Of a stretch of 64,000 nt of DNA, positions 5,570-14,206 are shown in pieces. Every line of letters starts with the position of its first letter. Position 1 is the first letter of the stretch. The notes beneath the pieces are model-generated. The model was not told the DNA's origin and ran no database searches. It worked only from the letters and a program-made list of their open reading frames with translations. Both the position numbers and the translations under genes were made by a program. The DNA lies in assembly GCA_019352875.1 (NCBI GenBank), contig JAAAFW010000015.1:846056-910055 (forward strand), given 5' to 3'. The DNA comes from Pedobacter cryoconitis (lineage in GTDB: Bacteria > Bacteroidota > Bacteroidia > Sphingobacteriales > Sphingobacteriaceae).

Positions 5570-6472
5570 TTAAAATCCAACTTGTAACCCTGCTGAAGCA
5601 TAGGGAGATGCCTTGAAAGAATATCCTTTATCCTGAAAAATGGTTTTTAAGCTTCTATTGGTGATTTGTGCTGTACGGGTAGCATTTAATCCAAAAGTGA
5701 GCGGTATTGAAACACGTTTTCCTATCTTTATTTCCGGACGCAATCCCAGAACAACGTATTGATGGGTGAATATTTTATTTTTACCCTCTTGTTCCAATAA
5801 AGCCATCTGCCCATTAATTTCAGTTACAAAACTTAGCCTTAAATTTTTATTGACGTTATAGCCTGCTGACATTTCAAGACCATCCTTCAAGGAAACCTTA
5901 ACTGAGTAACGACCGGATGTTGTCCAGTTAAGGTAAAAAGCGGGGAATAGCATTGGAAATCCGAAGGAGTTATTTATTGCAAGACCACCTCCCAAATCAA
6001 GATTTGGTCTCAAATGGCGGATGAATACAAAACTGGCACTAGCCAATAGATTTCTAAACCTGATTTCAGACAAATCCGAACTTGGCAGGAAAATGCCCCC
6101 ACCTAAGCCCGCTCTCATTGACCACCGGTCATTTAATGGCCGCTGGTAATTAAGACTTAAGCCAAGATTCAGAATCTCATTAATAACCAAAGGTTCTGTG
6201 AAATTCTTATTATTAAGTCTGGCATATGCACCACCCGCACTGATAGACCACATCGTAGGCCGGTTCTTCTCATTTAATTTCATGGACAGCGGAATGTTTA
6301 TTCCGCCCTGATAAACCATTGCGGAACCTTTACTATTTCCTATTGTCTGACTGGAATCACCTTGAGTCATCTGGTACCTGGATGTTCCGAAATATTCAGT
6401 CTTAAAAAAAACTTGCGCATTGACACTTGTATACGCAATACCTATAAAAACACAAATCAATAATAATCTCAT
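5570..6472 (-). CDS. outer-membrane beta-barrel protein, unknown function
   Basis: 300 aa. The N-terminus MRLLLICVFIGIAYTSVNAQ is a clear signal peptide with cleavage near residue 19-20. The rest is alternating polar/hydrophobic strands rich in Gly, Asn, Tyr and Phe, ending in the aromatic C-terminus GLQVGF typical of outer-membrane barrels. I recognise no specific family. It has its own promoter, a near copy of the promoter of the exporter operon upstream (see the two LytTR-like sites), so the two are probably co-regulated. A weak hairpin (5549-5564) lies just after the stop. Confidence 0.65.
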   Translation of the reverse strand: MRLLLICVFIGIAYTSVNAQVFFKTEYFGTSRYQMTQGDSSQTIGNSKGSAMVYQGGINIPLSMKLNEKNRPTMWSISAGGAYARLNNKNFTEPLVINEILNLGLSLNYQRPLNDRWSMRAGLGGGIFLPSSDLSEIRFRNLLASASFVFIRHLRPNLDLGGGLAINNSFGFPMLFPAFYLNWTTSGRYSVKVSLKDGLEMSAGYNVNKNLRLSFVTEINGQMALLEQEGKNKIFTHQYVVLGLRPEIKIGKRVSIPLTFGLNATRTAQITNRSLKTIFQDKGYSFKASPYASAGLQVGF

Positions 6473-6504: not shown

Positions 6505-6575
6505 TGTTGAGACAAATATCAAGGGAGCTCCGGTGAGAAGGAAATAGTTTTGACCGCTGGTAATTTAGCTTTGAC
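6505..6575 (-). promoter_or_regulatory. promoter of the barrel gene with LytTR-like direct repeats
   Basis: Read on the minus strand, GTCAAAGCT (6567-6575) and GTCAAAACT (6546-6554) are 9-bp direct repeats with a 12-bp spacer, 21 bp centre to centre. Downstream is a -7-like box GATATTTG (6513-6520) with no TTG at -33. The repeats fall at about -40 and -61 from the predicted start, where an activator would bind. The same layout recurs at 13704-13774, and 26 bases around the -7 box are identical. LytTR response regulators such as AgrA bind 9-bp repeats with 12-13 bp between them. The regulator itself is an inference. Confidence 0.6.
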
Positions 6576-6597
6576 GCCTGGCAGCTGTTATTCTTAT

Positions 6598-9168
6598 TTA
6601 TAGATCAGGATTGAAACTAAACCTGAGACCGATTGAGCCCACCCCGGGATGGTCCAGATAAGTAAAACGCTTGATCGCAGTCACACGAAGGACTTTAAAT
6701 ATATTGCCTATACCAAATCCGGCTTCTATATAGGGTGTATTACTTAGCGCATAAGTAGTAGCCCTCCCGCTTGAATGAACCGGGAATTTATAAGTATCAG
6801 GATTAGTTGCCGGATTATTCTCATTTCGCAGACCACCATAAATTATTTTGAACGATAGATATTCCCTCAGTTTGAGATCCTGAAGAAGTGGAACTTTATT
6901 TAACAGGAAGCCATTAAAGCTATGTGTCATGTTAATACCTACATATTTGTCACTAACAAATTCCATAAAATTCATCATGTTGTAGGACTCCTTCTCATAT
7001 AAATAAGTCTGATTAGCCGGAAGAATGGCTAACAATGGAAATGGCACCCGTCCCAATACGGTTCCGCCGTTAAGTGTTACGTCGGTGAAACCTGCCTGAG
7101 AAAGATAAAATCGCTTAGCAATTGATGTATTAATGTTTAGATAGTTATAAGGGTTATTCATAATCCCTTTCATTCCATAATTCCCGCTAAGTGTGAAAAT
7201 TGGATGTTTGCTTTTAATAATCCTTCTGTTTACGGGCCCCTGAAAGATTTTTTCATGTGGTGCAAACCGAAACATAAAAGTCAGTTCGGTAGTAGAAAGT
7301 TTACTGATCGGGTTGTCCGGGTTAGCTACTGTCTGGAATGTCAGTAATGCAGCCGGCCTTTGTACCAGGTTCCTGATCCCAAAATTATAGGTGAAGTGGT
7401 TTTCCAACTCCCTGGTATATTCCAGTTTGGCAATTCTGTTATATAGCCATAAATTTCTTGGGCCCCGGCTTATAGAAGCTAAAGGATTTTGATTTTTCTC
7501 AATCAAAAAATTCTTTCCGGGAATATCGGTATCATATTGGTAACTGGCCCGCACAAAGTTATTCGGGAATTTATAAGGTGCTGATTTATTAAAGGAATAC
7601 ATTCCACTCATGTAGTATTTGAGCTGTTCATCTTTAAACCCGTAGGCCGCATACCCTTCCAGATAAATAGATTTATTGAATAGAGGAGTTGTTCTTCCAC
7701 CAATCCTTAAACGCAGTCCCTCCACCCGATTGGAAGATATTATCGACTCGATAGGTCCGATCTGAACAGGGCCAAGATCGCCGTATCCACCAACAACAGT
7801 GGAGGTAATCCACATACTTCGCTTAAAAGAGGGCATCTTTTTGAGAGAATCAATGTTCGCATAAATCTTAGACTTTGATAATGAAAGCGTATCACCGCGT
7901 TTCTTAGCCCAAAATCCTATGTCCTTTTGATGTGTACCTGCGTAAATTTGATCGTCTGCACCTCGGTAAAACACTTCTGGCATAACTACCCCAGATTTAT
8001 AGTTGGAATAATTAACTGTACGCTCACCGAGAATGCTCATCCCTTTTTTTTCATTGATTCCGAAGTTAGATTGAGTATAGCTTTTATACAGGTATAATTT
8101 TCCATCGTCAGCACTACGAAATTCCTGATGTACTCTTGCTGATCTGATAAAATTCAGATTAATACCTTTGTTAATGCCAAGGTCAAAACTGTTGACCGCA
8201 TATTTTCCATCCATAGTAACATAAAGCTTCCCCTCAAAAAGGCGGTCGCCTGCATTTCTTGGCATGAAACTGATCTCAATTAGCTTCTTTTCGGTTAATG
8301 TATCAGTAATAAAATATTTATAGAATGCAGGGGAATGATCAGCAATTGGACTCAGAAACTCATTTTTGAGAAAAAATATGTCATTCTGATAGATATCAAA
8401 ATTTTCATAAAGCCTGTTTAGATACATATCGAGACCTGCGCTATCGATATATGCACTGAAATCGACTTCCTTATGTGCCTTCAATATTTTTATTTCCTTT
8501 TCGGGGCTCTTCCTAAAGTAGCGTTCGTAAATCTTTTCACTCATGTACATAGGTAAGGTAGTCTGCTTTTCATTATTCACCAGTGAGGAGGTGTCCAGCA
8601 GAAAACGATACTTGTCAAAAGTCTTTTTATGAAGAAATTTATCGGACATTTCGGTAAGAGAAAACTGAATCCTTTCATATTGATCATATTGCAAATATTC
8701 CGAATTCTGCAGACGGTTGGTGCGCTTGTGGTCTATTACCTTTTGGATAAGTTCCACCGCAGGATTTCCCTTGTTCCGGTATTTGCTTTTTTTGCCTGAA
8801 CTGATTGAAACTTCCTGCAACTGGTTATTGTTGTTCTCCATTAGCACAATAATCTCAGCTGACTTTCCGCTGTTGAGATCGTGTTTTAACGGTGTATAAC
8901 CCACATAACTGATGGTCAGTGCACTGTGTTTTCCCTTTTTACCCAGAGAGAATTTGCCATCATTATCGGTTTTTGTACCAGTCTGTGTACCTGTAAAAAA
9001 TACGCTAACGCCAGAAAGTGGTTCCTGAGTGTCTTTATCTATTATCGTTCCATTGACCACCTTTCCCTCAATAATCTCAGATCTGGCAGAACTATCCTGT
9101 TGAGCAAAGACAAAGTTTGGTATTAAAATTAGGAGAGAGTTGTAAAAAAGGGATTTAAGAATATTCAT
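6598..9168 (-). CDS. DUF5686 family outer-membrane protein with CarboxypepD_reg-like domain
   Basis: 856 aa. Signal peptide 1-22, ending FVFA. Residues 38-118 are a carboxypeptidase-regulatory-like beta-sandwich (SGVSVFFTGTQTGTKTDNDGKFSL, then ISYVGYTP). The rest matches the architecture of DUF5686 proteins: a mixed region to about 450, then a long beta-rich barrel ending GLRFSFNPDL. It starts 14 bases after the ABC ATPase stop, so it is the last gene of the exporter operon. That position suggests that it works in the outer membrane with the exporter, but no function is established from sequence. Confidence 0.75.
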   Translation of the reverse strand: MNILKSLFYNSLLILIPNFVFAQQDSSARSEIIEGKVVNGTIIDKDTQEPLSGVSVFFTGTQTGTKTDNDGKFSLGKKGKHSALTISYVGYTPLKHDLNSGKSAEIIVLMENNNNQLQEVSISSGKKSKYRNKGNPAVELIQKVIDHKRTNRLQNSEYLQYDQYERIQFSLTEMSDKFLHKKTFDKYRFLLDTSSLVNNEKQTTLPMYMSEKIYERYFRKSPEKEIKILKAHKEVDFSAYIDSAGLDMYLNRLYENFDIYQNDIFFLKNEFLSPIADHSPAFYKYFITDTLTEKKLIEISFMPRNAGDRLFEGKLYVTMDGKYAVNSFDLGINKGINLNFIRSARVHQEFRSADDGKLYLYKSYTQSNFGINEKKGMSILGERTVNYSNYKSGVVMPEVFYRGADDQIYAGTHQKDIGFWAKKRGDTLSLSKSKIYANIDSLKKMPSFKRSMWITSTVVGGYGDLGPVQIGPIESIISSNRVEGLRLRIGGRTTPLFNKSIYLEGYAAYGFKDEQLKYYMSGMYSFNKSAPYKFPNNFVRASYQYDTDIPGKNFLIEKNQNPLASISRGPRNLWLYNRIAKLEYTRELENHFTYNFGIRNLVQRPAALLTFQTVANPDNPISKLSTTELTFMFRFAPHEKIFQGPVNRRIIKSKHPIFTLSGNYGMKGIMNNPYNYLNINTSIAKRFYLSQAGFTDVTLNGGTVLGRVPFPLLAILPANQTYLYEKESYNMMNFMEFVSDKYVGINMTHSFNGFLLNKVPLLQDLKLREYLSFKIIYGGLRNENNPATNPDTYKFPVHSSGRATTYALSNTPYIEAGFGIGNIFKVLRVTAIKRFTYLDHPGVGSIGLRFSFNPDL

Positions 9169-9182
9169 GGTCAGTAGGGGTG

Positions 9183-9878
9183 TTAGGGATTGAAATGTGG
9201 GCTGACGATTTGCCCATCCATCATTTCGATGATGCGATCTGATTTATCCGCAAAATCATTATCATGTGTGACAGCAATAATGGTCTGACCAAATTCCTGC
9301 GCTAACTTTTGGAATGCTTCAAAAACAATGTCTGTATTTCTGGAATCCAGATTACCGGTAGGTTCATCCCCCATGATAATAAGTGGGTCGTTAATCAGGG
9401 CGCGTGCAATAGCTACACGTTGCTGCTGCCCACCAGATAGTTTGGCCGATGGTTTTAAGGCCTGATTATGCATACCCAGCATACGCAGTTTTTCATAAGC
9501 CCGGTACTCAATCTCTTTCCTGGAATATCTGCCTAGCCGAAGTGCCGGGATCATTACGTTTTTCAGACAGCTGAATTCATTGAGCAAGTAGTGAAATTGA
9601 AAAACGAATCCGATCTTTTCATTCCTGAGTGCCGCAAGCGCATTTTGTTTCTTGCCCGTGACCAGGTCGCCATCTATTGTTAGCCCGCCCTGATATTCGG
9701 TATCCATTGTTGAAAGAATATAAAGCAATGTCGATTTGCCACTTCCGGATTTGCCGACAAGCGAGACAAATTCACCTTTATTGACTGTGAAGGAGATATT
9801 GTCCAATACTTTAAATTTTTCAGGCGAGTAGAAAAATTTACCGATTTGATCTGCCTTTAAAATGATTTCTGTTTGCAT
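9183..9878 (-). CDS. ABC transporter ATPase, MacB/LolD type
   Basis: 231 aa nucleotide-binding subunit. Walker [10 protein letters not shown] (42-50), signature LSGGQQQR (147-154), Walker B LIIMGDEP (166-173) and switch His205 are intact. The TGNLDSRNT block after Walker B is typical of LolD/MacB/FtsE-type ATPases that power mechanotransmission exporters rather than import. Its stop codon and the DUF5686 start are 14 bases apart, and it begins two bases after the permease stop, so it is tightly coupled in the operon. It energises the FtsX-type permease next door. Confidence 0.9.
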
Positions 9879-9880
9879 GA

Positions 9881-11128
9881 TTATTTTCTGAAAATAGAAA
9901 CGGGATCTACATTGGCTGCTTTCCTGGCAGGCAGGTAACCTGCTAAGAGCGTAATGAACAGTCCGAATAAGCTTCCTTTAATAAAAATGTAAGTGTCAAA
10001 GACGATAGGGAAATAGCCGATGTCGCCGCCCAGATAGATTCTGGAAGTCAGGAATACCAGAAGAATTGCCAGTAAAAGGCCGGCAAGGATGCCCATTAAA
10101 CCGATTAGTGCACCTTGTAGGACAAAAATCCGGATTACATCACTACTCTGAAACCCCATAGCTTTTAATATCGCTATGTCGTTAATTTTTTGACTAATGG
10201 TCATGTTCAGAATATTATAGATGCCAAAGCCAGCCACCAGTAATATCGAAAGCGATATTGCAGATACAAGTACACTACGCATATTAGCAGCACTCACCAG
10301 TGTTTCATTGGCAGCCTTCCAGTCTTCCGCTTTATAGCCTGTCAGCGCAGAAAACCTGGTCGAATAATCTGCTGCTTTGTTAAAATCAACTACATCTACA
10401 TTGATATCGGTTACATAACTTGCCCCTTCACGCATCAATTGCTGCGCGGAATGAATACTGATATAAGATTTCGTCTTATCTGTGAGTGAATTTTTGGTTT
10501 TGAACAGTCCGGCTACTTTCATGACCTTAGTTATGTTTCTCGAAGAGGTAATACTGATATTATCCCCGGTTTTAACGTTCATTTTTGAAGCGACACCTAC
10601 GCCCAGTAGTATTCCGTTGGGGAAGACCTCCAGATCCTCCATTTTACCTTCTACCATTGTTGACCTGATGGCGAACATCTGGTCCGCCTCCATTATCCCG
10701 ACACCTGAAGCGTTTCCCGTAATCAGAGACATTCCGCTGTTATAAAATATATTTACCGCTATTTGGGGTGTAACGATTGTTACTTCCGGCTGGGATTTTA
10801 ATAAAGCAACAATGCGTTCCGGATCAATAATACGGTTGCTCCTGGGAACAATTTTGGGGTTACTGATGAGATTAAGCATATTGGTGTCATTGTTTTTAAA
10901 AAGGGGTTTACTGATCTGGTCCTCCTCATATACGCGGATATGAGGAGTATTATTGAAGATCATAGCATTGGATTTTTGAGTGAAACCGGCAGTCATGCAG
11001 TTCATGAAAATAAAAATGGCTATGCCGATTGTCACACCCAGCGATGCGATGAGCGTTAATCTCTTACTGGTTACGATGTAAGTGATCGAAATATCTGTAT
11101 CGATGTTGTGCTTGTATTGATCTCTCAT
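9881..11128 (-). CDS. ABC transporter permease, FtsX/MacB type
   Basis: 415 aa. One N-terminal helix (about 25-47), a 230-residue periplasmic MacB_PCD-like domain and three C-terminal helices (about 288-312, 335-365, 378-402) give the four-helix topology of MacB/LolC-type permeases. The segment NMTISQKINDIAILKAMGF (cytoplasmic loop) is the classic FtsX coupling helix motif. The permease and ATPase are separate polypeptides here, unlike MacB. It lies between the adaptor and the ATPase with gaps of 8 and 2 bases. Cargo is unknown: peptide, lipoprotein or glycolipid are all possible. Confidence 0.85.
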   Translation of the reverse strand: MRDQYKHNIDTDISITYIVTSKRLTLIASLGVTIGIAIFIFMNCMTAGFTQKSNAMIFNNTPHIRVYEEDQISKPLFKNNDTNMLNLISNPKIVPRSNRIIDPERIVALLKSQPEVTIVTPQIAVNIFYNSGMSLITGNASGVGIMEADQMFAIRSTMVEGKMEDLEVFPNGILLGVGVASKMNVKTGDNISITSSRNITKVMKVAGLFKTKNSLTDKTKSYISIHSAQQLMREGASYVTDINVDVVDFNKAADYSTRFSALTGYKAEDWKAANETLVSAANMRSVLVSAISLSILLVAGFGIYNILNMTISQKINDIAILKAMGFQSSDVIRIFVLQGALIGLMGILAGLLLAILLVFLTSRIYLGGDIGYFPIVFDTYIFIKGSLFGLFITLLAGYLPARKAANVDPVSIFRK

Positions 11129-11136
11129 GATTAATG

Positions 11137-12228
11137 TTAGGGGGCAGTGATAGTTTCGTTCTCCTTAAGGCCGCTGAGGATCTCTACCCAGTCAGTTGAA
11201 ACAATACCAGTCCGGACTGATACCGGTTTTTTTCCGCCCTTTAATGTGACTTTGTTGCCATAACCAAGAAAAAGTGCAGGGATGACCATCGCATTCTTTT
11301 TGGTTCCTGTGATAATGTTAGCTTCCAGCTGTGTACCGATAATATCAAGATCAGGCTTTTCCTTAAAATAGGCTTTAACCAGGAACGATCTGGAGGCTTC
11401 ATCAAAGGCAGGCAGAATCTGCCTGAGTACAGCTTTATAGATTTTATTTTTATTGGTATTTAGCCTCACAACTATTTCCTGGCCTATCTTCAACTTGGAC
11501 ATGTTGTTCTCGTCTACATTTAACCTAGCGTAGATGAGCCCGGGATTACCAATCGTTGCGATCACGTCACCTTTACGGACGTAATCACCTAATTGCTTTT
11601 TCTTTAAAAATATTTTACCGGCGTGAAGCGCTTTTAACTGGTTTTGCTGGCTGATCACCTCATTGACATCACTTGCGTAACGCTGCGTTACTTCGTTTTC
11701 CAATGCTGTCATTTTCTGGTTCTGATATTGTTCCTGTAATGCACTAAGAGTGGCCTGAGAACTAATGAGTGTAAGCCGGGCATTCTCATATTCTGTTTTG
11801 GAAACGCTATTATTTTCATAAAGACGTTTAAATCTCTCTGCCTGTTGCTGATCGAGTTTCAGTTTTGCTACCGCACTTTGCAAATTTGCCTTGATTTGCA
11901 GCAGCGCTGGTGCAGAGGACAATGTGTTTTCATGTGCGATTACATGGAGACTGTTCGCACTTTGTGCGTTGATAATATTTTGGTCGTTATCAATGATAGC
12001 CAGTAACTCGCCATTTTTCACCAGTGTTCCCTCACTAAAATTCATTTTCACCAGGTAGCCGTCAGTTTGTGCGGTTAGCTCATACCTGTCGTCTGATTCA
12101 AGCGTTCCCGGGGCAAATACCAGATCTGAAATATCTTTACGGCTGGCTTGTGTTTCATTTAACTTATTGCCACAAGAGGAGAGGACAAGCAAACTTGCCA
12201 TTATCTTAATTAAATGTGTGTGTTTCAT
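11137..12228 (-). CDS. HlyD/MacA-like periplasmic adaptor lipoprotein
   Basis: 363 aa. Lipoprotein signal LLVLSSC with the acylated Cys19. The order is that of a membrane fusion protein: a lipoyl-like half near 55-85 (DGYLVKMNFSEGTLVKNGELLAII), a long coiled-coil hairpin (about 95-205), the second lipoyl half (KKKQLGDYVRKGDVIATIG) and a beta-barrel. It should bridge the inner-membrane permease to TolC. Its start overlaps the TolC gene end by four bases (ATGA type), so translation is coupled. MacA-like role by context. Confidence 0.85.
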   Translation of the reverse strand: MKHTHLIKIMASLLVLSSCGNKLNETQASRKDISDLVFAPGTLESDDRYELTAQTDGYLVKMNFSEGTLVKNGELLAIIDNDQNIINAQSANSLHVIAHENTLSSAPALLQIKANLQSAVAKLKLDQQQAERFKRLYENNSVSKTEYENARLTLISSQATLSALQEQYQNQKMTALENEVTQRYASDVNEVISQQNQLKALHAGKIFLKKKQLGDYVRKGDVIATIGNPGLIYARLNVDENNMSKLKIGQEIVVRLNTNKNKIYKAVLRQILPAFDEASRSFLVKAYFKEKPDLDIIGTQLEANIITGTKKNAMVIPALFLGYGNKVTLKGGKKPVSVRTGIVSTDWVEILSGLKENETITAP

Positions 12229-13550
12229 CTGATAGTATTGCTGATTGTTATTTTACTTCTTGCATATTTTGCATTAGCCAGTTGTGCCACCGTATTCAGG
12301 CTACTGTTTAGCCAGTCATCAAAAGAGTCTATAAGATCAGTTGCTGATAAAATGCCTTCTCGGTAGATGTCCAGGTTTTTATAATAGGAATCTTTACGCA
12401 GCGCTTCTATCTGAAGTGCAATCCGGTAACTTCTTTCAGCTTTTTGTTCGTCCAGTGTTAACTGATTATTGTTAATCCTATCCTGTAAAATATTATGCTG
12501 CCAGTTATTTCGGGCAACCTGCAGATTGATCCTGTCATATTTAGCAGCAGCGATTTTCGAGACCTCTGGCAATAGTGGTATGCTAAGGCGCAGTCCTATA
12601 TAACTAGTACCAAACCATCTGCTGTTATCAAAAAACTGGTTGTTTGTATTTTGCTGTAGCCCAAATGAACTGAATAGGTTTAGCGTCGGGTAAAACCATC
12701 TTTTATCTGCCCGAAGTGTTGCTTCCTGATATTTAGTCTGCAATTCCGCCTGGCGTTGGAGCAGGTCGCCGCTGGCTGTTATCGTTAAATCGACTTTTGG
12801 AATAGTAACTTCCTTTGCAATAATAGTAACAGGGGTGACAGAATCTATATCAGCCAGGATCTTCAGCATATTGTATTGTTGCTGAAGTTGTACTTCCAGC
12901 TGTTGCAGTTTGTCCTGAACTGTTAAACGGTTGGCTAGTGCAATATTCACGTCTTGTTTCCTTGCTATTCCTTCTTTATGCTTGTTTTGTAAGATGATGC
13001 AAAGTGTATCTGCATTGTCCAGGCTTTTACGGGTAACAAGGATTTGCCCCTGGTAAGACAGAATATTATGGTACGAGGCAGAGATACTTTCATAAACTGC
13101 TTTTTTGTCCAGCAGGTTATTGACCCTGGTCAGTTGTTCATTAGTTTTAGCGGTCTTTATTAATGCTGCAGCATAGGGATTAATGAGATCGATCTGAGGC
13201 GAAAAGATAACATTGCTTTCATACTTTTGTCCAAAGTTGACAGGGCGATAAGTCCCTTCGGGGCCACCAAATAACTCTGCAGGAATAAAACTGGTATTTA
13301 GTTTAGTGTTCGCAGTCATTGTAAAACTAGTACGGCCCTGCAAGTTCCATTTGCCTAGTTTTGCAGCAATTGTCTGATATTTGGCTAACATATTTTGCTG
13401 CACTGCATTTTGAAGGTTATTGTTATGGCTATCTGCATAAGTAAAAACCTCTTCTAAAGATTGAAAAACCAGCTTCTCCTGCGCATTCAGTGATATACTG
13501 GAAATGAAACATAAAACAAGTAGAAAGATAAAGAAAGCTGTCTTCATCAT
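12225..13550 (-). CDS. TolC-family outer-membrane efflux protein
   Basis: 441 aa. Signal peptide 1-23 ending LNAQ, then two long alpha-helical repeat halves with the heptad-rich text expected of outer-membrane factor proteins (for example NNNLQNAVQQNMLAKYQ and the DLIDSFDDWLNSSLN C-terminal helix). First full-length gene of the exporter operon. The start ATG at 13550 overlaps the stop codon (TAATG) of a 35-aa leader frame that is a remnant of another gene, so it may be translated by re-initiation. ATG-ATG at the start leaves one codon of uncertainty. Confidence 0.85.
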   Translation of the reverse strand: MMKTAFFIFLLVLCFISSISLNAQEKLVFQSLEEVFTYADSHNNNLQNAVQQNMLAKYQTIAAKLGKWNLQGRTSFTMTANTKLNTSFIPAELFGGPEGTYRPVNFGQKYESNVIFSPQIDLINPYAAALIKTAKTNEQLTRVNNLLDKKAVYESISASYHNILSYQGQILVTRKSLDNADTLCIILQNKHKEGIARKQDVNIALANRLTVQDKLQQLEVQLQQQYNMLKILADIDSVTPVTIIAKEVTIPKVDLTITASGDLLQRQAELQTKYQEATLRADKRWFYPTLNLFSSFGLQQNTNNQFFDNSRWFGTSYIGLRLSIPLLPEVSKIAAAKYDRINLQVARNNWQHNILQDRINNNQLTLDEQKAERSYRIALQIEALRKDSYYKNLDIYREGILSATDLIDSFDDWLNSSLNTVAQLANAKYARSKITISNTIR

Positions 13551-13657
13551 TAATTTGTAATAGGTATAACTATTAAATACCTGGTCTTGAAGAAAAACTG
13601 CTCAGTGCTCTTTGGCAGAACAATACTTGTGATAAGCACGCAAATCAATAATCTCAT
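13550..13657 (-). pseudogene. 35-aa remnant of a barrel gene N-terminus, now a leader frame of the TolC operon
   Basis: A frame from ATG at 13657 to TAA at 13552-13550 encodes 35 aa beginning MRLLICVLI and later QFFFKTRYLI. The barrel protein encoded at 5570-6472 begins MRLLLICVFI and continues QVFFKTEYFG at the matching position, so this frame is the eroded 5-prime end of a paralogue. Its promoter is also duplicated (13704-13774). The stop overlaps the TolC start by one base. It is either a relic or a working leader that couples translation into TolC. Confidence 0.6.
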
Positions 13658-13703
13658 CTTTTTAAATAAACATTTTCAAATAAATCAACACGTTTTATAC
13701 GGT

Positions 13704-13774
13704 TGTTGAGACAAATATCAAGGGAGCTCTACCGGGATAGAAATAGTTTTGACTGATGGTTGTTTAGCTTTGAC
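13704..13774 (-). promoter_or_regulatory. promoter of the exporter operon with LytTR-like direct repeats
   Basis: On the minus strand GTCAAAGCT (13766-13774) and GTCAAAACT (13745-13753) are separated by exactly 12 bases, followed by the -7-like GATATTTG (13712-13719). The repeats and the 26 bases at 13704-13729 are identical to those at 6505-6575, while the sequence between has diverged, which points to conserved binding sites. TTG at -33 is missing, as expected of an activator-dependent promoter. No LytTR regulator is encoded in the window. Confidence 0.6.
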
Positions 13775-14206
13775 AACCGGTAATTAGGCTATGAATACCA
13801 TTGTCTATAATGGTCAGTTTATAGTCATTTACAACCGACTTAAGCGAAAGCTTGCTGCAAAAAGTAATGCTGCTAGGGGCTTTATTTGTAGATTTTGGAT
13901 TTTGTGGCTTAAGGTTCCATGAGGAGAGTATGAAACTGCATGAAGCTTTGATATCAAAAAAGATTATGTAAATACCGATTTTGGACAAATCCGAACGTTC
14001 AGCATGAAAATTGAAGACATTAAATTCGAATGTTCAGCGTGAAAACAGCGTTTCGGGGTTATGACTGGAGAATGTGAAAAAACGTTTAGCTATTCTTTAT
14101 GCTCATAATTGCTAGCTGAACATAAGAGATGCTGAAACGACTTATTATATTAAAGGGCTTATCAGAATGTAGGAGGTCAATAAACATGAAGTCCGCAGTT
14201 GTGACT
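13775..14206. other. spacer with decayed coding sequence and a repeated 20-mer
   Basis: No convincing gene. CCGAACGTTCAGCATGAAAA (13991-14010) and TCGAATGTTCAGCGTGAAAA (14026-14045) are direct repeats with three mismatches, and GCTGAACAT (14115-14123) is an inverted copy of their core. A minus-strand frame at 13764-13988 ends in DYKLTIIDNG, which recalls the IxDNG box of histidine-kinase ATPase domains, but nothing else supports a kinase. Confidence 0.35.

Follow-up and report, generated by a model that had tools for sequence, protein, structure and literature searches.

A candidate LytTR regulator site and a probable duplicate of its control region ahead of an ABC exporter operon in Pedobacter cryoconitis

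The window (the whole 64,000-nucleotide stretch of Pedobacter cryoconitis DNA that was analysed, lying inside a genome of 4.93 Mb) carries an ABC exporter operon and, directly behind it, a gene for a DUF6268 protein. Promoter B precedes the exporter operon, in which the gene order is TolC, adaptor, permease, ATPase and DUF5686, and the DUF6268 gene stands downstream of promoter A. The features are:

5570..6472, minus strand: DUF6268 protein, 300 aa, likely an outer-membrane barrel (PF19783, 353.6 bits)
6505..6520, minus strand: -7 box GATATTTG of promoter A (6513-6520) and the conserved bases after it, with TTTC where the -33 box is expected
6546..6575, minus strand: site A, direct repeats GTCAAAGCT-N12-GTCAAAACT, candidate LytTR regulator site
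6598..9168, minus strand: DUF5686 protein with a carboxypeptidase-regulatory-like domain
9183..9878, minus strand: LolD-like ABC ATPase
9881..11128, minus strand: FtsX/MacB/LolCE-type ABC permease
11137..12228, minus strand: HlyD/RND-type periplasmic adaptor (PF16576, PF13437)
12225..13550, minus strand: TolC-type outer membrane efflux protein (PF02321)
13550..13657, minus strand: remnant of a DUF6268 gene start, 35 codons (MRLLICVL...QFFFKTRY; protein alignment)
13704..13729, minus strand: 26-base block common to promoters A and B, with the -7 box GATATTTG at 13712-13719
13745..13774, minus strand: site B, the same direct repeats as site A, ahead of the exporter operon
13870..14169, plus strand: histidine-kinase gene remnants (aa 121-152 at 13870-13965, aa 293-338 at 14032-14169)

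As all genes of the exporter operon and the DUF6268 gene run in the same direction and A lies directly behind the operon, promoter A may double as an internal promoter of one cluster. A sequence search for solved structures found no relative of the DUF6268 protein (best E 0.73).

Promoters A (6505-6575) and B (13704-13774), both on the minus strand, share two repeats with a 12-bp spacer and 26 identical bases, as the sequence-only reading had reported. GTCAAAGCT lies at 6567-6575 in A and 13766-13774 in B, GTCAAAACT at 6546-6554 and 13745-13753, giving a period of 21 at both sites, and the common block GAGCTCCCTTGATATTTGTCTCAACA covers 6505-6530 and 13704-13729. With the -7 box set at -12 to -5, the repeats occupy -67 to -59 and -46 to -38; their centres, -63 and -42, are near the -61 and -40 first proposed. 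The box has one mismatch from TAnnTTTG, given in PMC9723704 as the sigma-A -7 consensus at -12 to -5 from Flavobacterium, and the position-matched boxes in relatives, assigned by position only, are GTTCTTCG, GTAATTCG or TTTCTTCG. Both promoters had been described as lacking the -33 TTG, and TTTC indeed stands at -36 to -33 in each, although a degenerate -33 box is possible. The proximal repeat adjoins this TTTC, which suggests that a bound regulator may activate transcription via sigma factor contact. Repeats of 9 to 11 nt spaced by 11 to 13 nt are described for LytTR regulators in PMC4847170, and 12 bp is the usual spacer in the cases covered by PMC6193735.

The short pattern proves little by itself, since GTCAAANNT-N12-GTCAAANNT has three matches genome-wide and its reversed control has two; with two mismatches allowed it gave 12 matches in the window where 9.9 were expected, which is noise level. 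The extended pattern GTCAA-N16-GTCAA-WWMWWTTT has four copies in the genome and none in the reversed control. The implication of the sequence-only reading that the pattern would not recur at random positions therefore stands for the extended form, whereas the short form stays near its control. Together with site homology over 108 to 142 bp and conservation in relatives, the extended pattern excludes chance. Weaker matches were rejected as extensions of the regulon: 22 were found with up to two mismatches (32 in the reversed control), and a shorter pattern with up to three mismatches gave 77 (91 in the control). The four copies are promoters A and B, a site C at a regulator locus and an orphan site D on another contig; the 9-12-9 geometry is found at A, B and C, and at D with one changed base.

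L062:9705-9738 (G000:C22:711704-711737): site D, orphan fourth copy, 75% identical to the kinase/DUF6268 control region

Site C adjoins a kinase and a LytTR regulator, about 127 kb from A on the same contig. The sequence-only reading had placed the regulator of a small LytTR-type regulon outside the window and suggested searching the genome for the pattern and for such regulators; that search led to site C and this pair. The kinase (338 aa, LytS-type; PF06580, 72 bits) starts 53 bp from site C and is followed on the same strand by the adjoining regulator gene (250 aa; PF04397, 68.1 bits; PF00072, 70.5 bits). Site C lies between the kinase gene and a DUF6268 gene whose first 10 codons equal those of the window copy, after which the assembly has a 10-N gap. 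An 80-base stretch that begins at the -7 region and runs up to the gap is identical in promoter A and C, which suggests gene conversion or recent duplication among the copies. Gaps of 10 N at L033:5810-5819 and L034:3047-3056 (the latter just left of the window) interrupt DUF6268 copies, and the visible ends of both broken copies are identical to the window copy, again fitting recent duplication or gene conversion. Past the assembly gap near the regulator locus, a 1014-aa enzyme with adenylation, carrier and NAD-binding reductase domains is encoded (L033:6402-9446).

The repeats are tied to the linked regulator by neighbourhood and by co-occurrence in relatives, which makes the connection a predicted one. 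A search of 148 genomes gave 20 regulator matches at E 1e-60 or better, and 16 relatives among the 147 other genomes, with 57 to 87% identity, were counted as orthologues besides the window genome; G018, G102 and G128 (38 to 41%) and a second copy in G058 (40%) were left out. All 16 relatives belong to the same genus, and DUF6268 adjoins the kinase/regulator pair in every one except G029 (15 of 16). DUF6268 matches numbered 38, and the upstream regions of 30 were examined: 15 regulator-adjacent genes, the window copy and 14 others, two of them in regulator-bearing genomes (G029, G086). The remaining eight were covered by the strict genome-wide pattern only. GTCA[A/T]-N16-GTCAA precedes 15 of 15 regulator-adjacent genes (12 GTCAA/GTCAA, three GTCAT/GTCAA) and 0 of 14 non-adjacent genes outside the window genome (Fisher p 1.3e-8, which overstates the case and is indicative only, as same-genus genomes are not independent). 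The one non-adjacent gene in 15 that has the repeat is the window copy, where site A lies 127 kb from the regulator.

Spacing is similarly fixed. The -7-like box stands 29 bases after the proximal GTCAA in 14 of 15 relatives and in A, B and C, and 30 bases after it in G041 and D. Wherever a locus has a DUF6268 site (16 loci), a leave-one-out matrix ranked it top, with 21 to 44 bits. Setting G041 apart, 15 relatives have the usual layout, and in 13 of them the matrix placed a second site (9 to 30 bits) ahead of the barrel/kinase/regulator operon; in L096 the corresponding site scored only 2.1 bits and in L090 there was none. This second site makes it likely that the kinase/regulator pair is autoregulated. 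The window genome and G041 have one site, between kinase and DUF6268 and pointing to DUF6268, and for these two genomes control of the kinase is therefore a prediction. A homologue of the PF13568 barrel gene of G029 stands upstream of the kinase in 13 of 17 regulator loci, and a consistent picture would be an autoregulated pair that controls outer-membrane barrels. Among the four best matrix matches per locus, no other exceeded 3.7 bits apart from one of 6.0 bits in G029, which points towards a gene of 313 aa that has no Pfam match (L088:3690-4693), a possible change of target. At L094:5107, L095:5079 and L097:5080 there is a seeming third GTCA repeat, 21 bp further upstream of the kinase operon.

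Of the 17 genus members with the regulator, 10 had the strict pattern, against one of the 72 without it (Fisher p 4e-8, indicative in the same sense because these genomes are related), and in the other seven regulator-bearing genomes the matrix finds looser forms. Over all 148 genomes the strict pattern matched 16 times, two of these outside the genus and in other families (G095, G121), and the reversed control matched four times, so that a few chance matches are expected. The genus member with a strict site and no regulator at the threshold used is G055, in which the site adjoins a short frame that resembles, with 42% over 50 aa, the barrel gene of the kinase/regulator operon; this locus has perhaps decayed.

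Judged by its flanking sequence, promoter B derives from a duplicate of the kinase/site/DUF6268 control region that has since decayed, and the exporter operon now stands behind it. Region C shares 81% identity with B over 108 bp and 75% with D over 142 bp. On one side of B are kinase remnants, divergent from the site as the kinase is at the regulator locus, in the form of colinear fragments with stops and gaps (72% identity over 32 aa, 54% over 46 aa). Within a set of 36 sequences the kinases of the window genome and of G041 matched them best, and an exporter-type kinase was rejected as their source (the best exporter-linked match among those listed, L181, had E 0.014). On the other side is the DUF6268 start remnant, which aligned with a score of 50 where 2000 shuffles reached at most 35. 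The resemblance of the two promoters, as first noticed, was borne out, and its interpretation changes: B resembles A as a duplicated control region and not as a site that arose twice, an independent origin being rejected on the homology with C and the remnants of both flanking genes. The repeats, spacing and -7 box of B are unbroken between two dead gene copies, as expected if promoter B is still used. Since the stop codon of the remnant overlaps the TolC start codon as TAATG, the remnant may form a leader ORF translationally coupled to TolC.

Site D is possibly a second capture of the same control region. Downstream of it there is no forward ORF of at least 70 aa within about 280 bp, and the first such ORF lies over an N-run, inside a gene on the opposite strand. 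A nucleotidyltransferase gene starts 91 bp from D in the divergent direction; the operon on this side encodes the nucleotidyltransferase, a CDP-alcohol phosphatidyltransferase and an LPG-synthase-like membrane protein.

TolC matches at E 1e-40 or better occur in four of the 147 other genomes, with 32 to 41% identity: two (G009, G136) have a PF06580 kinase and a LytTR regulator of their own next to them, one (G005) is beside a TetR gene and one (G139) is at a contig start. Pfam confirmed the regulators next to these exporters. At the thresholds used for TolC and regulator, exporter and linked regulator occur together in none of the relatives examined, including the 16 with regulator orthologues, and the predicted link between them is known from one genome only. 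The permease survey covered the best 80 of 536 confirmed loci, of which 55 had at least 3 kb of flank on both sides; the other 25 had too little flank and were left out of the neighbour count. A LytTR gene within 4.5 kb was found in 24 of the 55, a TetR gene in nine (a lower bound, TetR having been sought with one query) and neither in 22, so that one or the other is near 33 of the 55. Four further Flavobacterium loci show TetR outside the position rule of the count. The four most similar exporters (60 to 64%) in the best 80 of 536 loci all have LytTR neighbours, and no DUF6268 match was found in those 80 as far as their flanks reach. In a lag test on 17 exporters with their own LytTR gene, repeats matching in at least eight of nine positions occurred in four at lag 21 and in none to three at 28 other lags, which is only suggestive of 21-bp repeats ahead of such exporters. 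Exporters of this type thus appear often to be run by a local regulator. At the window locus no trace was seen of a local regulator once present and then lost; its exporter may have come under another LytTR system by promoter capture, in a direction that we infer.

Taken together, it is probable that one LytTR regulator acts at both sites and that B is a captured, duplicated control region. The kinase would sense a signal and phosphorylate the LytTR regulator, two molecules of which would bind the repeats of 21-bp period, centred near -42 and -63, and bring RNA polymerase to a promoter that has a -7 box and no more than a degenerate -33 box. Ancestrally, the pair would have controlled the DUF6268 barrel gene and its own kinase operon. 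In the window strain the kinase/DUF6268 control region would have been duplicated, the flanking genes of the copy would have decayed, and the copied region would have become the promoter of the ABC exporter operon, leaving a 35-codon DUF6268 relic that ends on the first start codon of the exporter. Conservation of the site, its linkage to the regulator, fixed spacing and decayed flanks are seen directly in the genomes compared. Regulator binding, activation, the signal and translational coupling are what we infer from them.

The weakest step of this account is that B is active today. It is unlikely, though the most plausible of the alternatives, that duplication left the repeats at B (and D) as inert relics, with only the DUF6268 and kinase promoters regulated and the exporter transcribed from another promoter or barely expressed. 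Homology of B, C and D over 108 to 142 bp, the fragmentary state of the kinase and DUF6268 copies at B, and the survival of the repeats at D, where no forward ORF of at least 70 aa follows within 280 bp, would all fit inert copies, and with flanks about 80% identical site B may not yet have had time to decay. Against this, most of the length of the flanking copies is gone, but the repeats, spacing and -7 box at B are whole, and the stop of the remnant frame falls exactly on the first start codon of an intact operon, although a stop-free frame of 35 codons is not rare by chance.

Activation by the linked regulator could also be questioned on other grounds. That the regulator acts as a repressor, or with a different sign at different promoters, seems improbable; the sign of control is unreadable from sequence, but the arrangement, with sites at a fixed distance upstream of a promoter that looks weak, is that of the LytTR-activated examples in PMC6193735. 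Still less probable is a different regulator, another LytTR or a non-LytTR protein, with the linked pair merely sharing the regulon. The genome does hold 29 LytTR domains and G055 has the site without the linked regulator, but the site follows the linked regulator through the genus, it is present at both promoters of most regulator loci, and the barrel-like frame beside the G055 site is what a decayed locus might leave.

Tentatively, and with slightly less than even confidence, the whole divergent control region between kinase and target may have been duplicated and captured by the exporter operon, where it would have taken the place of a local LytTR or TetR regulator such as is common near related exporters; sensor-linked intergenic regions could then be portable regulatory cassettes in Bacteroidota, and D would be a further capture, next to an operon of envelope-lipid type. 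For Pedobacter, the analysis names the site, regulator and targets of a candidate LytTR system, all open to test, and it places the uncharacterised DUF6268 family in a regulatory context. Regulon growth would here be caught in the act, with a copied promoter, a dead kinase fragment and a dead target start beside the recruited operon. In the literature searched (most subscription papers lie outside it), neither the site nor its targets nor the capture was found described, no paper treated LytTR together with Pedobacter, and DUF5686 was not mentioned; DUF6268 is barely mentioned there. For Bacteroidetes LytTR, ABC transporters and two-component systems, no title among the matches listed concerned such a circuit.

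LytTR two-component regulons with direct-repeat sites are of an already known kind. The HdrR, BrsR, AgrA and YpdB systems have like repeat geometry upstream of the promoter, as described in PMC6193735, PMC4847170 and PMC4227749, and LytS/LytTR systems pair a PF06580 kinase with a PF00072+PF04397 regulator as the window genome does. Unlike the sites of these systems, those described here have a GTCAA core and a proximal repeat that abuts the -33 position, and the predicted targets (DUF6268, a PF13568-type barrel and, in the window genome, an exporter) are different ones. The regulator falls below the BtsR profile cut-off (100.3 of 246 bits). In the same phylum, the LRS-like LytTR operons of Bacteroides have predicted repeats upstream of TATCTTTG -7 boxes (PMC6193735, Table 3). 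These are 11 bp long with an 11-bp spacer and differ from the window repeats in sequence and period (22 instead of 21); according to PMC6193735 their regulators, unlike the one here, contain transmembrane segments, and their partners are NfeD/DUF2154 membrane proteins.

The exporter has the TolC, adaptor, FtsX/MacB-type permease and LolD-like ATPase seen in MacAB-TolC, LolCDE and darobactin-type exporters. MacB fuses ATPase to permease, whereas these are separate genes here (9183-9878 and 9881-11128). Among the matches listed (for the ATPase, 25 of 189), no NCBIfam equivalog cut-off was reached, be it for LolCE (163.3 of 362.45), LolD (238.4 of 307.75) or DarD of the darobactin exporter (182.3 of 375). 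The operon also differs from all three in ending with DUF5686. At that position, after the exporter, several genomes (loci L174, L175, L179, L180, L218 and L223) have TonB-receptor-like and DUF4249 proteins, identified by Pfam in L174 and L175 and by tblastn in the others.
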